From Limnobacter thiooxidans (lineage in GTDB: Bacteria; Pseudomonadota; Gammaproteobacteria; Burkholderiales; Burkholderiaceae_B), in contig NZ_AP028947.1 in the NCBI RefSeq assembly GCF_036323495.1, forward strand, positions 1,178,001 through 1,242,000: a DNA stretch of 64,000 bases, read 5' to 3'. Position 1 is the stretch's first letter; each line of letters begins with the position of its first letter. Shown piece after piece: positions 211-63,767 of this stretch. The position numbers and the translations under genes were made by a program. The notes beneath the pieces were generated by a model that searched no databases, was not told where the DNA came from, and saw only the letters and a list, made by a program, of their open reading frames with translations.

Positions 211-333
211 GAAAACTTGCCGACTTTGTGCGCAGGGCCTTGCGGTCGCGAAGCGAAAGCCAGGACCCGACCATGTTTTTTGTCGGGACTGGCTTAGCGA
301 GGAACAAGCGCAAAGGCGAAATGCCAAGTTTTC
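211..333. repeat. family-1 long palindrome, copy 0
   Basis: The foot is GAAAACTTG (211-219) against CAAGTTTTC (325-333), extended outward by CTGCCC (200-205) / GGGCAG (334-339). The middle stem is CTTTGTGCGC (224-233) / GCGCAAAG (308-315). The apical stem 257-271 pairs with 282-295 with one bulge around a 10-nt loop (272-281, catgtttttt) closed by CCGAC/GTCGG. It has the same architecture as the copies near 8.0, 8.4, 38.8, 39.1 and 48.5 kb. It lies just 3' of the minus-strand regulator gene ending at 457; the gene on its other side is outside the window. Confidence 0.8.
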
Positions 334-7359: not shown

Positions 7360-7917
7360 ATGAACAAGGCATTCACCAAGGAAAATGATTCGGATTTTGA
7401 TGATGACGGGGAAGACACAGCCACAGCCCTGCCTCAAGGCCTGAAGAATTACATCACACCTAAAGGTTATCGGCGCTTGCGCGACGAGTTGACACACCTG
7501 GTAAAAACCGAAAGACCCGAGGTGGTGGCGGTGGTCTCCTGGGCGGCATCCAACGGGGACAGGTCTGAAAATGGCGACTACCTGTACGGCAAGAAGCGTC
7601 TGCGGGAAATTGACAAGCGAATTCGCTTTCTGACCAAGCGCACCGAAATTGCGGAAATTGTTGATCCGGCTACTCAGCAGGCACTTGAAAACATCTTTTT
7701 CGGCGCAACAGTGACGTATATCAACGGCAAAGGCGAAGAGCTGACCGTGAAAATTGTGGGTGTGGACGAAGTGGATACCGCCAAAGGGCACATCAGTTGG
7801 ATATCTCCGGTTGCGCGCGCACTGCTGAAGGCCAAGGAAGGCGATGTGGTGCAGTTGATGACACCGGCTGGGCGGGATGAACTTGAAATTGTGCAGGTTG
7901 AATACATCGTCGATTGA
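7360..7917 (+). CDS. greB: transcription elongation factor GreB
   Basis: Rescues arrested RNA polymerase by stimulating cleavage of backtracked RNA. The N-terminal coiled coil (LRDELTHLVKTERPEVV...) and basic patch (SENGDYLYGKKRLREIDKRIRFL) are followed by the FKBP-like C-terminal domain (FFGATVTYI...GHISWISPVARALLKAKEGD). An acidic extension of about 25 residues (DSDFDDDGEDT) precedes the first helix. greB next to spoT is common in Burkholderiales, but here greB and spoT are convergent and separated by about 650 bp of palindromic repeats. Confidence 0.93.
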   Translation: MNKAFTKENDSDFDDDGEDTATALPQGLKNYITPKGYRRLRDELTHLVKTERPEVVAVVSWAASNGDRSENGDYLYGKKRLREIDKRIRFLTKRTEIAEIVDPATQQALENIFFGATVTYINGKGEELTVKIVGVDEVDTAKGHISWISPVARALLKAKEGDVVQLMTPAGRDELEIVQVEYIVD

Positions 7918-7973
7918 TTCAGCGCCTCCATCACAGCTTTAGCCAACCAGCGTGCCTTGCCCGATTCCGCACA

Positions 7974-8098
7974 GAAAACCGCTGATCCCTTTTTGAACGA
8001 AGGCTTTGCATTCACCGGAACCCGACAAAACAGATGGTCGGGTTCCGATGTCGCGCCACGCGCGAGCATGCAATCCTTGTTCAAACGGGGCTGTTTTC
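7974..8098. repeat. family-1 long palindrome, copy 1A
   Basis: The foot is GAAAACCG (7974-) against GTTTTC (8093-8098), with AAGG/CCTT and TGCAT/ATGCA in the middle. The apical stem is a perfect 11 bp: 8016-8026 CGGAACCCGAC against 8037-8047, around a 10-nt loop 8027-8036 (aaaacagatg). The loop is the exact reverse complement of the loop of copy 1B, so 1A and 1B are the same element in opposite orientation. The preceding 22 bp (from 7951) are also shared with copy 2A. It lies 56 bp after the greB stop. Confidence 0.85.
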
Positions 8099-8352
8099 CT
8101 GAATGTGCGGAACAGGCAAGTGCACTGCCGGGAAGGCCTTTCAGCAGCAGGTTCGTGCAGCCTGTTCGCACGTTCAACGGCGAGTTCAGGGTCACGCCAC
8201 TTGATGCATCACAGGAGCAGTCTATTTAACCCTGACTACCAACTTGTAGCAGGTGTCCAAGCAGTCACGGGATTGCTCACTCGTGCGTGCGATGAATCAC
8301 CGTCGGTTTCAAGCCCAATCGGCAGTGAGGTTCCAATCGCTTCGCCATTCAA

Positions 8353-8474
8353 GAAAACCTGCCCGTTTGAATTCACATGCAACGTTCGGCTGGATGCCGA
8401 CAACCCAATCGACCATCTGTTTTGTCGAGTGGGTTGAGTCAATGTGAATTTCAAAAAGGGATCAACAGGTTTTC
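8353..8474. repeat. family-1 long palindrome, copy 1B
   Basis: The foot is a perfect GAAAACCTG (8353-8361) / CAGGTTTTC (8466-8474). The middle stem has GTTTGAATTCACAT facing ATGTGAATTTCAAA. The apical stem is 8401-8413 CAACCCAATCGAC against 8424-8436 with one mismatch, around the 10-nt loop 8414-8423 (catctgtttt). About 250 bp separate it from the inverted copy 1A. The last 65 bp before 1B (from about 8275) are also recognisable before copies 2B and 3B. Confidence 0.85.
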
Positions 8475-8481
8475 AGGCGAA

Positions 8482-8560
8482 GGATTGGAATTTTCGCCGA
8501 GTGGGCAGTAAATACGATTGGCGATTTGAACTCCCGCCGAGTGGGCATCAAAAACACGTC
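8482..8560. repeat. tandem 40-bp tail units after palindrome 1B
   Basis: Two units share the core CGCCGAGTGGGCA at 8495-8507 and 8535-8547 (period 40), with a partial third unit (GTCGAGTGG) near 8558. The core can fold as a small GCC/GGGC hairpin. The array ends a few bases before the spoT stop codon at 8575. Confidence 0.65.
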
Positions 8561-8574
8561 GAGTGGAAGCGCGA

Positions 8575-10815
8575 TTAGTGCGCTGTTGTGCCCACCACTG
8601 GCAAGCGTGGCTTCGCAAACGCCCGACCTTTAACCCGCGTAACCCGTTCCACATACTCCAGCCGGCGTAGCGCCATCAGAATGCGTGCCAAATGCACACG
8701 GTCAGTTACCTGAATGGTGAAGTGAAGCAGCTTGCGGTAAGCGGTTTCATCGCTCATGGTCAGGTTGGTGATGTTGGCACCCGCATCAGACAAGGTGGCT
8801 GCAATGGTGGCCAAAGCGCCTTTCTCGTTGACTGCCTGCAAATCCACATTGACATCGAAGGGGCGGGTAATTTCAGGTGACCACTGCACATCCGTCCAAC
8901 GTTCAGGCTCTTTGCGAATCTGTTTGCGGGCTGTCTCACACTCATCGGTGTGAATGATCAAACCTGAGCCTTTTCGAACATAGCCTATGATGTTGTCACC
9001 GGGAATGGGCAAACAACACGGCGCCCGCTGAACCGACATGCCTTCTCCACCGTGAATCATGATGGGGGCACGTGCTTCACCAGTGTTGCCAGAAGGGGAA
9101 TCCACGCGGGCATCTGCACGGCCCATAGCAATCAGTACGCGGCGTGCCACCACTGGCGCCACTCGGCGCCCGGCGCCAATATCGGCAAGCAATTCGTCGC
9201 GGGTGCTGACTTGCGAGTCTTTTTGCAATCGGTCCCACACTTCATTGCTCAGGTTTTCCAGTTTGATCTGGTCAGCTTCCAGTGCCTGTTCAAGCAGCCG
9301 GCTACCCAAGCGAACGGTTTCTTCCAGGTTCATCGACTTCAGGTAATGCCGAATTTCCGACCTGGCCTTGCCTGACCGCACAAACCCAAGCCAAACCGGG
9401 TTGGGGCGGGAATGGGGTGCCGTGATAATTTCCACCACGTCGCCGCTTTTCAGCATGGTCCGCAATGGTTCGATCACCTGGTTCACCCGGGCTGCCACGC
9501 AGTGGTTGCCCACGTCGGTGTGCACGGCGTAGGCGAAGTCCACCACCGTGGCACCGCGCGGCAGGCTCATGATCTTGCCGTTGGGTGTGAACACATAAAC
9601 AGCATCGGGGAACAGGTCCACCTTGATGTGTTCAAGGAATTCAGCTGAATCGCCTGTCTGGTTCTGAATGTCCAGCAAACTTTGCAACAGGCGGTGGGTT
9701 TGGGTCTGAATGTTGTTCAGTGCCTCGCCTTCACCTTTGTACAGCCAGTGCGAAGCCACACCTTTTTCGGCCACCTTGTGCATTTCCTCGGTGCGAATCT
9801 GGAATTCAACCGGTGTGCCGTAAGGGCCAAGCAGCGTGGTGTGCAGGCTTTGATAGCCGTTCAGTTTGGGAATGGCAATGTAATCCTTGAATTTGCCAGG
9901 TACTGGCTTGAACAACTGGTGCAGCATACCCATCGCCATGTAGCAGCCGGGCATGTCTTTCACAACAACCCGGAAACCGTACACGTCCAGTACCTGTGAA
10001 AAGCTCAGGCGCTTTTCAATCATTTTGCGGTAAATGCCGTACAGCGCTTTTTCCCGACCGTAGACCTGGCATTCAATCTGTGCGTCGCTCAAGCACTTCT
10101 CGACCGCTTCCAAAATTTTTCCTACGACTTCGCGCCGGTTACCACGGGCCGCCAATACAGCTTTTTTTAACACCGCGTACCGCATGGGGTAAGCGTGCTG
10201 AAAGCTCAATTCCTGCAATTCGCGGAAAATTTCGTTCAGACCCAGGCGGTGGGCAATGGGAGCATAAATTTCGAGGGTTTCAAGGGCAATGCGGCGTTTC
10301 TTGGCGGGGCTCATGATGTCGAGCGTTCGCATATTGTGCAAACGGTCCGCCAGTTTCACCAGGATGACGCGCAAGTCGCGGGCCATGGCCAGCAGCATTT
10401 TTCGGAAGTTCTCAGCCTGCGCCTCTTCACGCGAGGAGAATTCCATTTTGTCCAGTTTGGACAGTCCGTCCACCAGGTCAGCCACCGAGGCGCCGAAGCG
10501 TTCAATGAGATCTTCCTTGGTGGTGCCGGAGTCCTCCATGACGTCGTGGAGCAGGGCGGCCTGCAAGGCTTGGCTGTCCAAACGCCAGGAGGCACACAAT
10601 TCAGCCACTGCAATTGGGTGGGTAACGTAAGGCTCACCTGTGGCTCGAAATTGCCCCAGGTGTGCAACGTCAGAAAACTTGTAAGCCTCGCGAACGCGCC
10701 GGATCTCGGCCTCCGGCAAGTAACTGGAGGCAAGTCCTATAAGCTGTGCGATAGAGACCACATCAGGTCTGTTTGGCTCAGGTTGAAGTTCTCTGGCTTG
10801 CATTGCCCCCCGCAT
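8575..10815 (-). CDS. spoT: bifunctional (p)ppGpp synthetase/hydrolase SpoT
   Basis: Controls the stringent-response alarmone. The N-terminal HD hydrolase site is intact (YVTHPI, H66; ALLHDVMED, H90-D91 and E94-D95). The synthetase domain follows (GREKALYGIYRKM...GYQSLHTTLLGP) and carries KFKD where bifunctional enzymes have the basic RxKD motif. TGS (AYAVHTDVGNHCVAARVN), helical, zinc-finger-like (RAPCCLPIPGD) and C-terminal ACT domains complete it. At 746 residues the length is normal. A start at ATG 10803 is an alternative. It probably shares transcription with minE upstream (38-bp gap) and lies downstream of gmk-rpoZ-minCDE. Confidence 0.95.
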   Translation of the reverse strand: MRGAMQARELQPEPNRPDVVSIAQLIGLASSYLPEAEIRRVREAYKFSDVAHLGQFRATGEPYVTHPIAVAELCASWRLDSQALQAALLHDVMEDSGTTKEDLIERFGASVADLVDGLSKLDKMEFSSREEAQAENFRKMLLAMARDLRVILVKLADRLHNMRTLDIMSPAKKRRIALETLEIYAPIAHRLGLNEIFRELQELSFQHAYPMRYAVLKKAVLAARGNRREVVGKILEAVEKCLSDAQIECQVYGREKALYGIYRKMIEKRLSFSQVLDVYGFRVVVKDMPGCYMAMGMLHQLFKPVPGKFKDYIAIPKLNGYQSLHTTLLGPYGTPVEFQIRTEEMHKVAEKGVASHWLYKGEGEALNNIQTQTHRLLQSLLDIQNQTGDSAEFLEHIKVDLFPDAVYVFTPNGKIMSLPRGATVVDFAYAVHTDVGNHCVAARVNQVIEPLRTMLKSGDVVEIITAPHSRPNPVWLGFVRSGKARSEIRHYLKSMNLEETVRLGSRLLEQALEADQIKLENLSNEVWDRLQKDSQVSTRDELLADIGAGRRVAPVVARRVLIAMGRADARVDSPSGNTGEARAPIMIHGGEGMSVQRAPCCLPIPGDNIIGYVRKGSGLIIHTDECETARKQIRKEPERWTDVQWSPEITRPFDVNVDLQAVNEKGALATIAATLSDAGANITNLTMSDETAYRKLLHFTIQVTDRVHLARILMALRRLEYVERVTRVKGRAFAKPRLPVVGTTAH

Positions 10816-21373: not shown

Positions 21374-23962
21374 ATGCGTTTAGATCGCCTCACCACCAAG
21401 TTTCAGGAAGCCTTGTCCGACGCGCAAAGTTTGGCCGTCGGCAAAGACAACCCCACCGTGGAGCCAGCGCACGTTCTCTTGGCCATGCTCAAGCAAGGCG
21501 AGGGGTCGGTGCGCGGTGTTATCAGCAAGGCGGGCGGCAATCCGCAGGTATTGATCAAGGGCGTGGAAGGCGAGGTCAACAACCTGCCGCAGGTGGCCAA
21601 CAATGCAGGCCAAATCCAGATTGGCAGCAAATTGCAGGCGGCACTGAATCTGACCGACAAGGAAGCGCAGAAGCGCGGTGATAAATTCATCGCCAGTGAA
21701 CTTTTTTTGCTGGCCTGCCTTCAGGAAAGCACTGGCTTGGCCAAGGTCATGAAAGAAGCCGGGCTGAATGCCCAATCCTTGAATAGCGCGATTGAACAGG
21801 TACGTGGTGGCGCAGCTGTAGACAGCGCCGAGGGCGAAAGCCAGCGTGAGTCCCTGAAAAAATACACCATTGACCTGACAGAACGGGCGCGCCTGGGCAA
21901 GTTGGACCCCGTGATTGGTCGAGACGATGAAATTCGCCGTGCCATTCAGATTTTGCAGCGCCGAACCAAGAACAACCCGGTGTTGATCGGCGAGCCCGGT
22001 GTGGGCAAAACGGCAATTGTGGAAGGCCTGGCCCAACGCATTGTGAATGGCGAGGTGCCCGAGAGTTTGAAAAACAAGCGTGTGCTGGTATTGGACATGG
22101 CCTTGTTGCTGGCCGGTGCGAAATACCGTGGCGAGTTTGAAGAGCGTCTGAAAGCCGTCTTGAAAGATGTGGCAGCTGATGAAGGCCAGACCATTGTGTT
22201 CATCGACGAAATTCACACCATGGTGGGTGCAGGAAAGGCCGAAGGTGCCATTGATGCAGGCAACATGTTGAAGCCTGCGCTGGCCCGCGGCGAGCTTCAC
22301 TGCATTGGTGCCACCACGCTGGACGAATACCGCAAATACATTGAAAAAGACGCTGCGCTTGAACGCCGTTTCCAGAAAGTGCTGGTGGGCGAACCTTCCG
22401 TGGAAAGCACCATTGCCATTTTGCGTGGCTTGCAGGAGCGCTATGAACTGCACCACGGCGTGGAGATTACCGACCCTGCCATTGTGGCCGCTGCCGAGCT
22501 TTCACACCGTTATATCACCGACCGTTTTTTGCCAGACAAAGCGATTGACCTGATCGACGAAGCGGCTGCACGGGTCAAAATGGAAATCGACTCAAAGCCC
22601 GAGGAAATGGACAGGCTGGATCGACGCATCATTCAACTCAAGATTGAACGTGAAGCGGTAAAACGCGAAAAAGACGACGCCTCGAAAAAGCGCCTGGCCC
22701 TGATTGAAGAAGAAATCACACGCCTTGAACGCGAGTACGCAGACCTGGACGAAATCTGGAAATCCGAGAAAGCAGCAGTGCAGGGCAGTGCCGCCATCAA
22801 GGAAGAAATTGATCACATTCGCGCTGAAATTGAGCAATGGAAGCGTAAAGGCGATTGGCAAAAAGTGTCAGAGCTGCAATACGGCCAGTTGCCAGCGCTT
22901 GAGAAAAAGCTCAACGATGTGAAGGAAAACGAGGGTGGTGTCCAGAAACCCAACCGTTTGCTGCGCACCCAGGTGGGCACTGAAGAAATTGCAGAAGTGG
23001 TCAGCCGTGCCACGGGTATTCCTGTTAGCAAGATGTTACAGGGTGAGCGTGACAAGTTGCTGCAAATGGAAGCGGCACTCCACATGCGTGTGGTTGGGCA
23101 GGACGAAGCAGTGACGCTGGTTTCAGACGCCATTCGCCGTTCACGCGCAGGGCTTTCCGACCCTAACAAGCCTTTGGGTTCTTTCCTTTTCCTGGGCCCA
23201 ACGGGTGTGGGTAAAACCGAGCTGTGCAAGGCACTGGCCGGATTCCTGTTTGATTCCGAAGACCATCTGATTCGCATCGATATGAGCGAATTCATGGAAA
23301 AGCACACGGTCAGCCGCCTGGTGGGTGCGCCCCCCGGTTATGTGGGTTACGACGAAGGCGGTTACTTGACCGAGGCTGTTCGCAGAAAACCTTACAGCGT
23401 GATTTTGCTGGACGAAGTGGAGAAAGCCCATCCAGATGTATTCAACGTATTGCTCCAGGTGCTGGACGATGGTCGTTTGACCGATGGGCAGGGCCGAACC
23501 GTGGACTTTAAAAACACAGTGATCGTGATGACATCCAATTTGGGTTCTCATGAAATTCAGCGTTTGTCAGGTCAAAGCGGTGAAGTCATCAAGGCGGCGG
23601 TCATGGAAGAAGTCAAAGTTCATTTCCGGCCTGAGTTCATTAACCGGGTGGATGAGCTTGTCGTTTTTCACGCGCTGGACAATGCGCACATTGCCAACAT
23701 TGCCCGAATCCAGTTGCAGCGTTTACAACAGCGTTTGATCAGCCGCGACATGCGGCTGGAAGTCAGCGATGCGGCCTTGGCCGAAATCGTCAAGTCCGGA
23801 TTTGATCCCTTGTATGGTGCGCGGCCGTTGAAGCGAGCCATTCAGCAAATCATTGAAAACCCGGTATCGAAAATGATACTGGAAGGCAAGTTTGGGCCGA
23901 ATGATGTGGTTCCGGTGGACTTCAAGGATGGGGCATTCACATTTGAACGCGTAGTGCATTAA
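21374..23962 (+). CDS. clpB: ATP-dependent disaggregase ClpB
   Basis: AAA+ hexamer that rescues aggregated proteins with DnaK. N-terminal domain ([18 protein letters not shown]); first AAA module with Walker [16 protein letters not shown] and Walker [15 protein letters not shown]; the long coiled-coil middle domain (about residues 400-530, rich in Glu/Lys, including [23 protein letters not shown]), which sets ClpB apart from ClpA; second AAA module with [14 protein letters not shown] and [14 protein letters not shown] 21374 follows GGAAGGG. At 862 residues it is full length. Family-2 palindrome sequence follows its stop. Confidence 0.97.
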
Positions 23963-23994
23963 GCGAAGTCACAATTGCTTCACTTCGGACTTTA

Positions 23995-24072
23995 AAGCCT
24001 CGCCATGTCACTTTGGCTTGCACATCGAAGCCTCGCCACGTCACTTATCCCGACGGCGTCGCTTCGTACTTC
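23995..24072. repeat. extra partial copies of the family-2 left arm
   Basis: The left arm word of the palindrome at 24073, GAAGCCTCGtCAtGTCACTTgtCCCGACa, is preceded by two degenerate partial copies: AAAGCCTCGCCATGTCACTTT (from 23995) and GAAGCCTCGCCACGTCACTTATCCCGACG (from 24027). This suggests repeated duplication of one arm. No gene is seen in 23963-24795. Confidence 0.65.
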
Positions 24073-24270
24073 GAAGCCTCGTCATGTCACTTGTCCCGAC
24101 AGCCCCGCCCAACGTGAAGGTTCAGGCGGTGGCCGTTCTTCTCCCACCTTGCAATGGATACCGCAAACGCTAACGCGTCTTGCGGAGCCGCTTCGCGTCT
24201 AATCCATTGCCAGGTGGAGAACGGCGGGCGGGCCTTGAATGTCGGGACCAAGTGACATTGGCAAGGCTTC
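24073..24270. repeat. family-2 giant palindrome, copy alpha
   Basis: A 198-bp hairpin. Foot GAAGCC (24073-24078) / GGCTTC (24265-24270). Outer stem TGTCACTTGtCCCGACA (24085-24101) / TGTCGGGACCAAGTGACA (24240-24257). Inner stem GCCGTTCT...CCACCTTGCAATGGAT (24132-24159) / ATCCATTGCcAGGTGG...AGAACGGC (24202-24225). The tip is CGCAAACGC / GCGTCTTGCG. It lies between the 3' ends of clpB (+) and the PF10118 gene (-). A second copy is at 63569-63767. Confidence 0.85.
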
Positions 24271-24366
24271 TCGCGCGAAGACAACAGTGACGTGCCACTG
24301 ACGGTGCTGTTGGCTGCCGACTGCTGCTGAGAGCTTGCATGCGAGACTGGATTTGATCAAGCTGCT

Positions 24367-24501
24367 GCGGACTTGGCGGACTTGGCGGACTTGGCGGACT
24401 TGGCGGACTTGGCGGACTTGGCGGACTTGGCGGACTTGGCGGACTTGGCGGACTTGGCGGACTTGGCGGACTTGGCGGACTTGGCGGACTTGGCGGACTT
24501 A
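24367..24501. repeat. 9-bp minisatellite, 15 units of GCGGACTTG
   Basis: Fourteen perfect tandem copies of GCGGACTTG and a fifteenth with a final A. Because the unit is a multiple of three, all frames stay open: plus strand ADL repeats, minus strand KSA repeats that end AAA-stop at the left side. Neither frame has a convincing start and ribosome site, so I treat it as a non-coding variable-number tandem repeat in the clpB/PF10118 convergent gap. Confidence 0.9.
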
Positions 24502-24666
24502 GCGCGTCGCCAGCGGTGTTGGCTCACTGTGCGGTGTTGCGATCATTCTGCCGATTCAGGTGGGCTTCCCGCTTGATGCGCAGTCGAGGGGCGATTCCGC
24601 AGGAAGCGATGCGAATACGCCCTTGGCGTTTCGCATGCCCCGAGCCAGCAATCAATAAGGGATTAG

Positions 24667-24782
24667 AGCCCGCCAAGGCGGGATGATGCGACACGCGCAG
24701 TGAGCAATAACAAGCTGCAGAGTAGCCCGCCAAGGCGGAATGACGCGACACGCACAATAAGCATCAACAAGCCGCGGTGAGC
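24667..24782. repeat. two tandem 57-bp units with small hairpin cores
   Basis: The word AGCCCGCCAAGGCGG occurs at 24667-24681 and 24724-24738 (period 57), and the following GATGCGACACGC and AAnAAGC words are also repeated with few changes. Each core can fold as CCGCC/GGCGG, resembling REP elements. A further hairpin, GATGCGAA...TTTCGCAT around ACGCC/GGCGT, lies just left at about 24608-24636. Confidence 0.65.
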
Positions 24783-37358: not shown

Positions 37359-37374
37359 AACCGTTTAGGATATA

Positions 37375-37403
37375 AAAAAAGCCGCCCTAAGGCGGCTTTT
37401 TTT
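37375..37403. terminator. bidirectional rho-independent terminator
   Basis: A-run (37375-37380), GCCGCC (37381-37386) / GGCGGC (37391-37396) with loop CTAA, then seven T (37397-37403). It serves both the orphan gene (+) and the convergent cold-shock gene (-). Confidence 0.9.
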
Positions 37404-37417
37404 CACAGACGCGTGAA

Positions 37418-37627
37418 TTACAGCGCTGTTACGTTTTCAGCTTGTGGGCCTTTCTGACCTTGAGTCACAGTGAAAGACACTTTCTGGCCTTCAGCCAAGG
37501 TTTTGAAGCCGTTGCCCTGAATGGCGCTGAAGTGTACGAACACGTCAGGACCGTTTTCACGGGAAATGAAGCCAAAGCCTTTGGATTCGTTGAAAAATTT
37601 AACTTGACCGGTTACGGTATCAGACAT
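37418..37627 (-). CDS. cold-shock domain protein
   Basis: A 69-residue single-stranded nucleic-acid-binding protein of the CspA family. RNP1 is KGFGFI and RNP2 is VFVHFSAI; the strand order [21 protein letters not shown] is typical. ATG 37627 follows an AGGA site; the longer frame to 37744 is not family-like. The 5' region from 37628 to about 37800 is AT-rich and could be a long leader of the kind known for cold-shock mRNAs, but no conserved element is identifiable by eye. Confidence 0.95.
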
Positions 37628-37893
37628 AGCAATATCCTGGATTTCTGAATTGAACAAAATAGCTAAAAAACTGGGTGAAATTCGAGAAACAGAACTATTG
37701 CTTAAGCGGTTTGCCTGAATTGAACTGACCTGAAGTAGCGCCAAATTTTTTTTGCTGAAGTCAGTTTAGGCTTTTCCCACGCTATGTCAAGCACCATTTT
37801 CGATTCAGTCACTTTTTCTTCATATTTCTTTTATAGATCTGTCACGTCCAGTCCGTAGATTTCGTGTCATCGAAATGAAAAACGGATCAGGTT

Positions 37894-38682
37894 ATGGACG
37901 CAATCAAGCACGAACTCAGCAAACAAGACGCCTTGCGCAATGCGGTGTACCTTAGCAGCCCCGCTCGCGCACAGGGGCCGTCACTTGAGGTTTGCTTGGC
38001 TAAAACCGCTGCTGAAGTACTTGAGGCCCAGAAGCTGCGATTTAATATATTTTCTGAAGAATATGGTGCGGACTTGGGCACCAACGGCATTGATCACGAT
38101 GTGTTTGATGCGTATTGCGATCACTTGTTGGTCAGAAACAGCCAAACGGGTGAGGTGGTCGGCACGTACCGAATTCTTGCCCCAGAAAACGCCGCACGTT
38201 TGAAATGCTGGTATTCCGAAACCGAGTTTTTCATGAATCGCATTGAGCGTTTGCGCAAAAGCACCGTGGAAGTAGGGCGTTCCTGTGTGCACCCTGAATA
38301 CCGCAATGGTGCGGCCATCATGCTGCTGTGGAGCGGTATTGCCCAGTACATGAAGCATGGCGGCTACAAGCACTTGATCGGCTGTGCCAGCGTGAGCCTT
38401 CGCGACGGCGGCCATCAGGCTGCAAGCCTGTTCAAACAGCTTGAGCCCCATCTGGCTGAAGCCAGTTGTCAGGTTTTCCCCAAAAACCGCCTGCCGGTTG
38501 AGCGCTTGCGCTGTGATGTGGAAATTGAACCGCCTCCCTTGGTGAAAGGCTACTTGCGCCTGGGTGCGGTGGTGTGCGGCGAACCAGCTTGGGATCCGGA
38601 TTTCAATACAGCTGATTTCATGATGCTGCTTTCTATTGACCGCATGAGCCCGCGGTATGCGAGGCACTTCGGGTTCATCTAA
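37894..38682 (+). CDS. OlsB-like GNAT acyltransferase
   Basis: Belongs to the Acetyltransf_5 / OlsB-type proteins (COG3176), whose characterised members make lyso-ornithine lipid from acyl-ACP and ornithine. Visible core: RFNIFSEEYGADLG, DHLLVRNSQTGEVVGTYRIL, VEVGRSCVHPEYRNGAAIMLLWSGIAQYM and IGCASVSLRDGG. It lacks the partner acyltransferase OlsA in the window, so the lipid product is uncertain. At 262 residues the length is typical. It is followed by a family-1 palindrome pair. Confidence 0.82.
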   Translation: MDAIKHELSKQDALRNAVYLSSPARAQGPSLEVCLAKTAAEVLEAQKLRFNIFSEEYGADLGTNGIDHDVFDAYCDHLLVRNSQTGEVVGTYRILAPENAARLKCWYSETEFFMNRIERLRKSTVEVGRSCVHPEYRNGAAIMLLWSGIAQYMKHGGYKHLIGCASVSLRDGGHQAASLFKQLEPHLAEASCQVFPKNRLPVERLRCDVEIEPPPLVKGYLRLGAVVCGEPAWDPDFNTADFMMLLSIDRMSPRYARHFGFI

Positions 38683-38757
38683 GTCCGTTGGTTGTACCTG
38701 TCTTGGCATCTACGTGCGTGGTTTTGCCTCCTCGGCGTGCCTTGCCCGATTTGGCAC

Positions 38758-38883
38758 GAAAAGCCGCTGATCCCTTTTTGAACGACGGCTTTGCATTCAC
38801 CGAAACCCGACAAAAAAGACGGTCGGGTTTCGGCGTCGCGCTGCGCACGAGCTTTGAAGCCTTGTTCAACGGGACGGCTTTTC
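38758..38883. repeat. family-1 long palindrome, copy 2A
   Basis: Perfect foot GAAAAGCCG (38758-38766) / CGGCTTTTC (38875-38883), differing from copies 1A and 1B by compensating changes. The apical stem is perfect, CGAAACCCGAC (38801-38811) / 38822-38832, around the 10-nt loop 38812-38821 (aaaaaagacg). Orientation is as 1A. It lies 75 bp after the acyltransferase stop and is preceded by the same 22-bp word as copy 1A. Confidence 0.87.
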
Positions 38884-39050
38884 TGAATGTGCCGAACATG
38901 CAAGTGCACTGCAGTAAGGCCAGCAGCAGCGCCTCAGTGCGCAGCCTACTGGGGCTTAGTGAGCTTCATCGCCTGCTCACTTGCGTGCGATGAGTCATTA
39001 CCAGTTCCAAGCCCGCCCGGCAGCGAGGTTCCAGTCGTTTCGCCATTCAA

Positions 39051-39172
39051 GAAAACCTGCCCGTTCGAATTCACATGCAACGTTCGGCGTAAAGCCGACA
39101 ACAGACTCGACCATCCGTTTTGTCGAGTCTGTTGAGTCAATGTGGATTTCAAAAAGGGACTTACAGGTTTTC
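39051..39172. repeat. family-1 long palindrome, copy 2B
   Basis: Perfect foot GAAAACCTG (39051-39059) / CAGGTTTTC (39164-39172). Perfect 13-bp apical stem CAACAGACTCGAC (39099-39111) / GTCGAGTCTGTTG (39122-39134) around the 10-nt loop catccgtttt (39112-39121). The variable stem centre is AGA/TCT, versus CCC/GGG in 1B and ACA/TGT in 3B. It is inverted relative to 2A, 167 bp away. Confidence 0.88.
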
Positions 39173-39180
39173 TGGCGAGG

Positions 39181-39258
39181 GACTGGAATTCGCGCCGGGT
39201 GGGCGCAAAAACAGTATCTGACTGGAGCTCGCGCCGGTTGGGCGCAAAAACCGCATGT
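39181..39258. repeat. two tandem 39-bp tail units after palindrome 2B
   Basis: Units 39181-39219 and 39220-39258 share GACTGGAnnTCGCGCCGGnTGGGCGCAAAAAC with few differences. Each core can fold as GCGCC/GGCGC. It ends 8 bp before the ppx stop codon. Confidence 0.8.
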
Positions 39259-39266
39259 AACCGCAA

Positions 39267-40769
39267 TTACTGCCTGCGCGTGACCAGCTCCAGATTCAAC
39301 CCAATACGCTGCCATTGCTCAAACTCGGTTTCCAGGCTGTATTGGGTCAACGGGTGATCCAGCAACCAATTTTTGGGCACGCTAAGCTGTACCCCTTGCT
39401 CCTGCAGTTTCACCCTCAGTTCTGGCAAGGCTTCAACTTCGCGGCGACGAAGGAACAGTGCCGCCAGTCGCAAGCACATGGGTGCCGCCCACTGAATCGC
39501 TGTATTTGCAATTTCACTGACTTTGCCCAGCTTGCCGTTGTGGGCTAGCACCCAAGTAGACAGTAGCAACTGCTCGCGTTTCGAGAAGCCGGGCATGTCT
39601 GCATTACTTAGAATGTACGCGGCGTGCTTGTGGTGCCCGTTGTGGCCGATGGAAAGGCCAATTTCATGCAACATGGCAGCCCACCTCAACATGGGCAACT
39701 GTCTTTTCAACAAAGGTTGCTGTTTCAGCAGTTGACTGAACAGCATTTCTGCAAGAACTTTGACTTTCTCGGCGTGTTGCGTATCAATTTTGTAACGATG
39801 CAAAAATTGCGCAACGGTAATTTCCCGCATGTCGTCATTGTGTTGCCGGCCCAGCATGTCGTAAAGCAAACCTTGGCGCAATGCGCCGTCGGTCACATCC
39901 ATGTGTTCCAGTTCCAGTTCCTCGAACACGGCGCTCATCACAGCCAGCCCTCCGGGCATCATGGGCAGGCGGTCTGGCTTCAGGCCTTCCAGCGTTACTT
40001 GGTCCAAATGACCCGCCGCGGTGACGTGTTCTCGGATCAGCCGCAATCCTTCCGCCGAAATGCCATGTTCGGTGAATCCGTTGGCCACGCAGATTTCTGC
40101 CAAGGCACGGGCTGTACCCGATGAACCAATGGCATGGGTCCAACCCTTGTCAATCATTTGGCGACGCAGCACCGCCACTTCCTTGCGGGCTGCCATCACG
40201 GCATTTTTCATCGCCTTGGGTTGGATACTGCCATCTGCGAAATACTGTTGCGCCGTGCTCACACAACCGATGTATAGGCTTTCCATCACATCGGGTTCGT
40301 AGTCATCGCCAATGATGAATTCGGTGGAGCCACCACCGATGTCCACGACCAGGCGTTTGCCCTGGCCAATGGGCAATTGGTGTGCCACACCGCAGTACAC
40401 CAGGCGAGCTTCTTCAACGCCGGAAATGACGTCGATCGGAAATCCGAGGGCTTCTTCTGCTTTGGCAATGAATTCAGAGGCGTTGCGGGCCACCCGCACT
40501 GCGTTGGTGGCTACTGCCCTTACTTCGCTCGGCTTGAAGGAGCGCAGGCGTTCCCCAAAGCGGCTGAGGGCATTCAGTGCGCGTTCTTGGCTGGCTTCAT
40601 CCAGCTGCTTGTGCTCATTCAGGCCAGCCCCCAATCGGACGGGTTCCCTCAAGGAATCGATGATGTAAATTTGGGATTGCTTGTTCAGCTCTTCAACGCG
40701 GGCAACAATCATGCGAAAACTGCTGGAACCCATGTCGACGGCTGCAATTAACTGGCGAGGCTTGGACAT
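39267..40769 (-). CDS. ppx: exopolyphosphatase (Ppx/GppA family)
   Basis: Hydrolyses terminal phosphates of polyphosphate or pppGpp. The ASKHA fold shows the two phosphate loops, AAVDMGSSSFRMIVARVE at the N-terminus and VVDIGGGSTEFIIGDD near residue 140; PGGLAVMSAVFEELELEHM lies in domain 2. The C-terminal HD-like helical domain begins near residue 310 (HRYKIDTQHAEKVKVLAEML...WAAMLHEIGLSIGHNGHHKHAAYIL). At 500 residues it is the long Ppx form. It is divergent from ppk, so polyphosphate synthesis and breakdown share a 144-bp control region. Confidence 0.93.
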   Translation of the reverse strand: MSKPRQLIAAVDMGSSSFRMIVARVEELNKQSQIYIIDSLREPVRLGAGLNEHKQLDEASQERALNALSRFGERLRSFKPSEVRAVATNAVRVARNASEFIAKAEEALGFPIDVISGVEEARLVYCGVAHQLPIGQGKRLVVDIGGGSTEFIIGDDYEPDVMESLYIGCVSTAQQYFADGSIQPKAMKNAVMAARKEVAVLRRQMIDKGWTHAIGSSGTARALAEICVANGFTEHGISAEGLRLIREHVTAAGHLDQVTLEGLKPDRLPMMPGGLAVMSAVFEELELEHMDVTDGALRQGLLYDMLGRQHNDDMREITVAQFLHRYKIDTQHAEKVKVLAEMLFSQLLKQQPLLKRQLPMLRWAAMLHEIGLSIGHNGHHKHAAYILSNADMPGFSKREQLLLSTWVLAHNGKLGKVSEIANTAIQWAAPMCLRLAALFLRRREVEALPELRVKLQEQGVQLSVPKNWLLDHPLTQYSLETEFEQWQRIGLNLELVTRRQ

Positions 40770-48096: not shown

Positions 48097-48146
48097 GCGG
48101 CTTGCTCGTTACGCGCAGTGTGTTTGCTTCTTGTTTAGCCTACCCA

Positions 48147-48225
48147 GCGTGGCTTACCCATTCCGCACTGCTGGGGAGGCCTTGAAGAAGCCTGTTCGGG
48201 CGCGTAGGAGGTATTTAAGCCACGC
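48147..48225. repeat. inverted repeat 3' of bdhA
   Basis: GCGTGGCTTA (48147-48156) is perfectly inverted at TAAGCCACGC (48216-48225). It occupies the place of the A-type palindrome in the other family-1 loci but lacks the GAC-loop-GTC tip, so it is either a decayed A copy or unrelated. Nothing else recognisable lies between here and 48360. Confidence 0.5.
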
Positions 48226-48424
48226 AATGGCGCACCAACTCAGCAGGTGTATCGACTCGCGTCGTGCACTGCGCATTTGCCACCATTTGGAGTCAGATCC
48301 AGATCTAGGTCCACCGCGCTGGTGTGCAGTCAACCACCACGGTTCGTCCATGCACACCCGCGCGATGATTCACTGTCAGGTTCAGCCCATTCAGCAGCGA
48401 TTTTCCAATCGTTCCGCCATTCAA

Positions 48425-48545
48425 GAAAACCTGCCCGTTTTAATTCACACGCCACGTTCGGCGATCAGCCGACAACACACTCGACCGTCTCTTTTGTCGA
48501 GTGTGTTGAGTCAGTGTGAATTCAAAAAGGGATTAACAGGTTTTC
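48425..48545. repeat. family-1 long palindrome, copy 3B
   Basis: Perfect foot GAAAACCTG (48425-48433) / CAGGTTTTC (48537-48545). Perfect 13-bp apical stem CAACACACTCGAC (48473-48485) / GTCGAGTGTGTTG (48496-48508) around the 10-nt loop cgtctctttt (48486-48495). Middle stem AATTCACAC / GTGTGAATT, covarying with CACAT/ATGTG in copy 1B. It lies between bdhA (+) and the transglutaminase gene (-). Confidence 0.88.
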
Positions 48546-48551
48546 AGGCGG

Positions 48552-48630
48552 GCGATTGGAATTCGCGCTAAATGAGCATCAAAACCGCTACAGTGACTGT
48601 ATTCGCGCTGAATGGGCACATGACAACTTG
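48552..48630. repeat. two tandem 40-bp tail units after palindrome 3B
   Basis: The word ATTCGCGCTnAATGnGCA recurs at 48561 and 48601 (period 40), in the same position as the tail arrays after copies 1B and 2B and with the same GCGC...GGGC core. It ends just before the stop codon of the transglutaminase gene. Confidence 0.65.
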
Positions 48631-48634
48631 GTGG

Positions 48635-63568: not shown

Positions 63569-63767
63569 GAAGCCTCGTCATGTCACTTGTCTCGACAGCC
63601 CCGCCCAACGTGAAAGTTGTGGCGGTGGCCGTTCCTCTTTCACCTTGCAATGGATGCCGCAAACGCTAAAGCGTCTTGCGGAGCCGCTTCGCGTCTAATC
63701 CATTGCAGAGTTGGGGAACGGCGGGCGGGTCTAGAATGTCGAGACCAAGTGATATTGGCAAGGCTTC
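63569..63767. repeat. family-2 giant palindrome, copy beta
   Basis: A 199-bp hairpin with the same layout as copy alpha. Foot GAAGCC (63569-63574) / GGCTTC (63762-63767); outer stem TGTCACTTGTCTCGACA (63581-63597) / 63737-63754; inner stem GCCGTTCC...TGCAATGGAT / ATCCATTGCA...GGAACGGC; tip CGCAAACGC / GCGTCTTGCG. Relative to alpha, CCC/GGG became CTC/GAG and TCT/AGA became TCC/GGA, so both arms changed together. It lies between lysS (+) and the partial gene (-). Confidence 0.87.

Follow-up and report, generated by a model that had tools for sequence, protein, structure and literature searches.

Intergenic palindromic repeats are common, and it has long been asked in which form they are maintained: as RNA, as single-stranded DNA, or only as selfish double-stranded DNA. 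In a 64,000-nt stretch of the Limnobacter thiooxidans chromosome (NZ_AP028947.1, positions 1,178,001 to 1,242,000; hereafter the window, with positions counted from its first nucleotide), six hairpins had been predicted that share a GAAAAC/GTTTTC foot, compensating stem changes and a 10-nt loop. They raise the question of what unit they belong to, and in which of these forms it is kept.

All six hairpins are indeed present, at 211-333, 7974-8098, 8353-8474, 38758-38883, 39051-39172 and 48425-48545. Against dinucleotide shuffles they gave z values of -4.3 to -8.2, and none of 200 shuffles was as good for any of them. A scan of the window with our covariance model R1, which was built in part from those same copies, recovered 6/6 hairpins, five at 107–129 bits and the one at 211-333, the odd one among the six, at only 59 bits. 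The loop consensus CrTCygTTTT of the original prediction is correct on one strand, with the hairpins at 7974 and 38758 oriented opposite to the other four. The 10-nt loop is conserved and yet not invariant: across 64 copies conservation is about 90–100% at four A positions (read as T on the opposite strand), at a fifth A and at the terminal GG, while the remainder varies and a few loops have one additional base.

Two other parts of that prediction did not stand. The GAAAAC/GTTTTC foot is not the end of the hairpin, as the arms at 7974 and 8353 run about 40–60 nt further on each side, and the six hairpins are not independent units: 7974 is paired with 8353, 38758 with 39051, and 211 with a copy beyond the window. 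The features of the window are the following.

211..333, outward strand + (the R1 match lies on the - strand): diverged hairpin core, z -4.3; partner at genome positions 1177781-1177905.
7918..8574, no strand: composite element, filling the gap between ORF 7360-7917 (+) and ORF 8575-10815 (-); from ORFs and fold.
7936..8145, outward -: left hairpin of this composite with full arms, 210 nt; core 7974-8098; fold of 7925-8165.
8295..8526, outward +: right hairpin with full arms, 232 nt; core 8353-8474; fold of 8255-8530.
8483..8555, no strand: right-end outer arm in two copies, spacing 40, 79% alike; repeat family D1.
24107..24247, strand -: left hairpin, diverged class C; class C model R2 30 bits, E 1e-5; fold of 23990-24290 with z -7.7.
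24367..24504, no strand: centre of the 24107-24688 composite, 15.3 copies of the 9-nt tandem repeat GCGGACTTG; TRF.
24541..24688, strand +: class C hairpin, right-hand partner of 24107-24247; R2 98 bits, E 2.5e-23.
38683..39266, no strand: composite element between ORFs 37894-38682 (+) and 39267-40769 (-); from fold and ORFs.
38758..38883, outward -, and 39051..39172, outward +: left and right cores of the latter composite; from the fold.
48097..48634, no strand: composite element; right core 48425-48545, outward +, partnered by a core-less arm remnant at 48138-48181, all that is left of the left hairpin.

The product of ORF 7360-7917 is, judged by sight, presumably GreA/GreB-like. The 24107-24688 composite sits between ORFs ending at 23962 (+) and 24796 (-). 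Beside the hairpin at 211-333 lies a 35-nt tandem repeat of the outer arm (341-440, 2.8 copies), and a weak R2 match at 63623-63723 (-; 21 bits, E 0.0024) is possibly a further hairpin.

The unit is thus larger than the reported cores: it is a composite of two long hairpins that face outward around a shared centre. With 90 R1 places and 27 class C places (out of 29) taken together, 49 of the 50 neighbouring hairpin pairs (less than 700 nt apart) proved to be outward-outward (R1/R1 29, R1/C 12, C/R1 8), with one exception. The elements are dispersed and non-coding, and their hairpins fall into classes A, B, B' and C plus rarer ones. Each long hairpin bears a side hairpin at a three-way junction. 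Hairpins of class B' that seemed to stand alone are paired with class C, which we modelled over 153 positions with a three-way junction of its own (R2; alignment A5 with 17 of 18 copies, a perfect palindrome being omitted). At some loci the centre contains 7–9-nt tandem repeats, and the outer arm is often repeated toward the flanking gene at intervals that we estimate by eye at about 25 nt in class B' and at about 40–60 nt in classes A and B. One extra hairpin class, whose foot resembles GGAAATCTG/CAGATTTCC, was seen together with class C at locus L211 and with class B at locus L252.

Copies were found well beyond the window. Blastn of two hairpins against their own genome gave 26 and 37 matches, and a profile search of 38 further stretches plus the window gave 67 copies, of which 64 (alignment A2; three incomplete or odd copies were left out) furnished R1. 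With this model the 3.5-Mb chromosome gives 90 matches at E <= 1e-3, of which the two weakest score 39 and 35 bits; many further copies thus exist, in favour of the original prediction. Among 60 genomes, searched with filters that lose weak matches, R1 matched in 12, all of them within the 16 of the same genus, and in 0 of the 44 outside; G002 (85% complete), G010 (65% complete), G014 and G015 are the genus members without a match, and G004 has one. The near relative G009 alone gave 91 R1 hits. R2 behaved in the same way, with 29 matches in the own genome and carriers in 12 of the 60 genomes, all of the same genus. A wider spread was considered because a scan with a consensus pattern returned at least 120 stretches, some among the matches listed in other phyla; genus-level names among these listed matches were mainly Limnobacter, beside Burkholderiales and Gammaproteobacteria bins. 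In a set of 97 loci, made up of 74 of those 120 stretches and 23 loci from the genome search, R1 gave 132 hits, none of them at the 18 loci titled as other genera or phyla, which look like chance pattern matches. In the material searched the family is confined to the genus Limnobacter.

The family also matched nothing that we could find described. Rfam gave nothing over its cut-off at any of the six hairpins, the only match in the window being a cspA thermoregulator at 37372-37766 (-; 116.8 bits). Eight further loci gave three matches at E <= 1, all far below cut-off (28.7 against 50, 28.1 against 114 and 24.5 against 32 bits); those to sR60 (28.7 bits) and BSnc120 (28.1 bits) lie at or beside class C, at L044 1304-1351 (-) and L043 2018-2098 (+), and are taken as chance. 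A phage or plasmid origin was rejected, as the 7918-8574 composite had no BLAST match in plasmids or phages and two exact patterns had none in viral contigs. Among open-licence papers on Limnobacter repeats or ncRNA and on convergent, palindromic, structured-RNA or ERIC elements, none concerned this family by title or abstract. The family is real and not found described; its general kind, dispersed intergenic palindromes, is known, and what is unusual is its architecture, which is modular, paired outward and favours one strand.

We next turn to the compensating stem changes, which are real. In 64 cores both partners have changed in 15 of the 17 predicted pairs. For 35 B-type cores, picked from the 90 by motif and by eye (alignment A4), the full structure has 44 pairs, of which 21 are changed on both sides, and 96.2% of the cells are paired. 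The significance of this covariation was judged by shuffles and slid structures: none of 500 shuffles matched the B-type cores in any of five measures, and pairing dropped to 33–49% when the structure was slid, a control biased in favour of the structure because it was drawn from the tested sequences. The same constraint is visible between species. For the 29 of 90 hairpins that have a counterpart among 30 loci of G009, substitutions reach 6.8% at paired and 16.4% at unpaired sites, 34 pairs are altered on both sides against about 9 expected if the sides were independent, and 27 are compensatory Watson–Crick doubles against about 3. The claim that what is conserved is the pairing and not the sequence, to a degree that recent duplication does not explain, is accordingly borne out by paralogues and by orthologues of a second species, with one strand favoured overall.

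Such covariation could also arise if the elements were functionless intergenic repeats whose arms are held complementary by template switching during replication. Indeed, at L204 (1857-2009) the class C partner hairpin is now a perfect palindrome, an apparent quasi-palindrome correction and the expected product of such a switch, so that part of the covariation may be mutational; moreover, arms and centre hold slippage-prone repeats. However, loop, bulges and side hairpin persist in the 64 aligned cores, substitutions between the two species are less frequent in stems than at unpaired sites, and correction that is neutral to the strand does not predict a strand bias. We therefore regard this explanation as very unlikely.

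A strand bias was in fact observed. A palindrome that acts as double-stranded DNA should show about equal numbers of G.T and A.C mismatches. Read inward, isolated mismatches stood at A.C:G.T 103:50 in the 90 own copies and 114:34 in 108 copies of relatives, and one-sided changes between the orthologues ended in A.C 70 times and in G.T 44 times. The excess of A.C on the inward reading means that it is the outward strand that bears the tolerated G.U. In class C, read outward, we counted G.T 26 and A.C 4, in agreement with what the symmetry of the composite leads one to expect, an expectation not recorded before the count. The mismatch counts are alignment-free and were preceded by an alignment-based first look; the alignment-based count in relatives, from poor alignments with few pairs, gave no clear preference (28:19 cells, 10:11 columns). 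Folding energy points the same way, with the outward strand more stable in 72/90, 81/108 and 16/18 hairpins. Related copies share mismatches, so the strand counts overstate significance, and the agreement between classes that have no sequence likeness is the stronger point. The preference is not present in every class: in the own genome the inward A.C:G.T ratio is 49:11 in A and 17:6 in unclassified copies, 29:26 in Bo and 8:7 in B'. If outward transcription biased mutation, the counts would lean in the same direction, and this would itself imply outward transcription. Mismatches and folding energy, which mostly favour the outward strand, speak for a folded single strand, RNA or DNA, rather than for a plain double-stranded palindrome.

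Among 59 loci, called with a gene caller of our own making, 39 lie between convergent genes, 19 between tandem genes and one between divergent genes. An exclusively convergent location, as suggested by the first gene calling, was given up after the improved caller and after open frames at nine doubtful pairs showed several to be tandem. In the window 11 of 50 gene adjacencies are convergent and three of these contain R1 hairpins. A convergent intergenic region holding a composite measures 653 nt in the median.

The reading that we tentatively favour, with less than even confidence, is that the outward strand is a folded RNA that forms a distal structured 3' end, while the family itself spreads as a non-autonomous repeat. 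A transcript running on from the far-side gene would cross the centre of the composite and fold the distal hairpin; the resulting stable, structured 3' end would keep neighbouring transcription units apart, and propagation would depend on separate machinery. Covariation, orthologue constraint, strand bias, outward pairing and the 39 of 59 convergent loci all count for such a read-through model. Against it count the 19 tandem loci, where read-through reaches only one outward strand, the strand bias that is weak in Bo and absent in B', the lack of a clear preference in the alignment-based count, and the decayed or undetected copies of several species downstream of ORF 7360-7917. Of ten tandem pairs, seven had the higher R1 score in the hairpin that read-through can reach, a difference that is confounded with class and not significant. 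The original prediction of a functional structured element thus holds for the structure, which is kept; the function is what we infer. The more far-reaching version, in which modular double hairpins with exchangeable outward classes form a new kind of intergenic element and, at dozens of gene pairs, supply overlapping mRNAs with their far 3' ends as strand-specific RNA folds, is unlikely as a whole.

RNA could also be made outward from the composite itself, as two divergent small RNAs with promoters in the centre. The predicted strands would be the favoured ones. Moreover, at 6 of 21 loci inspected by eye, hairpin C is separated from the flanking gene by a stem whose inner side carries an A run. 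Such a stem probably terminates that gene ahead of the composite, which argues against read-through from that side; three of these six loci also bear a T run on the other side that could end an outward RNA. A scan of two composites gave no sigma-70-like promoter (one unlike the sigma-70 consensus would escape it), and read-through fits this better than a central promoter does. The middle of the centre is, in addition, poorly conserved in the 22 A/B composites compared (3 of 25 pairs were left out), and convergent neighbours are not needed by promoters of this kind. Small RNAs from the centre are therefore decidedly unlikely. A search for an intrinsic terminator (a stem followed directly by a T run) in 7850-8650, around one composite, gave one terminator-like site, no more than the shuffle mean of 1.3.

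Single-stranded DNA remains as the other form. Folded single strands serve as DNA substrates of recombinases or transposases at attC sites and at the ends of IS200/IS605. The hairpins could accordingly be selfish mobile elements on whose folded DNA strand a strand-specific recombinase or transposase acts, so that only copies that fold can move and placement at gene ends reflects tolerance. The kept structure with its free sequence, the favoured strand and the dispersal would all suit this, as would the single divergent locus among the 59; tolerated repeats such as REPs likewise avoid divergent regions. The presence and state of composites also differ between species at the two loci that we compared. 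Downstream of the orthologues of ORF 7360-7917, profiles detect two hairpins in the own genome (G000), G009 and G005, one in G013 (at a contig end), one strong and one weak in G011 and G012, and weak or partial ones in G006, G008 and G003; none was found in G001, G004, G007, G014 and G015. With copies decayed or undetected in several species, the composite at this locus is not essential. At the 38.7-kb site, among 14 orthologous loci, both hairpins occur only in G000 and G009, one occurs in G003 and a short fragment in G007, and profiles find no hairpin in the other ten; G001 has, as judged by eye, a remnant of an arm, and at several of the empty sites the intergenic region is just some tens of bases long. 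The same place can thus be filled in one species and empty in another, the sites being too diverged for a target duplication to be read and the element ends blurred by arm repeats. No locus with an element where the window has none was seen among those compared. At one locus, moreover, the class of the left hairpin differs between G000 (L196) and G009 (L252).

Neither of two enzymes that might drive such movement turned up in the own genome. The Y1 transposase domain PF01797 is absent from all 13 good genus genomes, its only two matches being in G009, a genome with 6% contamination, and a RAYT-driven REPIN was rejected on this ground. A retro-element with a resident reverse transcriptase was likewise rejected, since none was found in G000; the enzyme is present in 5 of 16 genus genomes, namely four carriers and G002. 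In addition, the two hairpins of a composite are favoured on opposite strands, which is awkward for one single-stranded intermediate, and the structural constraint is visible at orthologous sites. Mobile hairpins of this type are a possible explanation, and a rather unlikely one.

Some loci have changed in other ways. Two composites of G000 hold about 1.1 and 1.4 kb more between their hairpins than in G009, with small genes (ORFs at L039 1848-2799 (+) and L196 1726-2888 (-), absent in G009), one of which we take by sight to be NlpC/P60-like and one YiiX-like. The G009 contig L261 joins the flanks of two B' loci that are separate in G000 (L208 and L040), by recombination between copies or by misassembly.

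How does the family compare with known systems? Integron attC sites are folded single strands recognised by structure, with variable sequence; the Limnobacter hairpins differ in being paired outward, and no cassette array was seen. REPs of the REPIN/RAYT type are, as far as described, short (20–40 bp) with a GTAG or CGTC tag, unlike our hairpins of about 150–230 nt, which also come without a RAYT-type transposase. Escherichia coli genomes contain ERIC. The prediction that the repeats are not ERIC agrees with a blastn search in which the 7918-8574 composite found no match in 20,395 E. coli records at E <= 1e-3. ERIC (also IRU or RU-1) of enterobacteria is similarly a dispersed non-coding palindrome of about 125 nt; in Limnobacter, by contrast, 125 nt are a mere core of a longer hairpin that stands in outward pairs with other classes. 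ERIC is described, in the sections of the source available to us, as having a terminal inverted repeat, 5'TA3' ends and a target site duplication, and as co-transcribed with its neighbours with orientation-dependent effects on mRNA (PMC2229807). REPINs or BIMEs resemble our composites as inverted doublets in extragenic space with compensatory changes, as far as the available sections tell (PMC3116915). Repeated pairs of adjacent stem-loops are reported in the available part of the source for Pae-1 and Efa-1 (PMC2267715), and repeated pairs of stem-loops in a table note for CIR of Caulobacter and Brucella (PMC2229807). These are alike in their paired stem-loops, compared here by description only, and the partial descriptions at hand make no mention of a strand bias, exchangeable classes or arm arrays.

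The family coincides with gene gain and apparent rearrangement at a few loci. With 59 loci, 12 carrier genomes, a one-strand signal and orthologous sites that are filled, decayed or empty, it offers material for the question of RNA versus DNA, open to ordinary RNA-seq in an environmental genus that is not known to be pathogenic. If the read-through reading is true, RNA folds would shape transcript ends at dozens of gene pairs within one genus.
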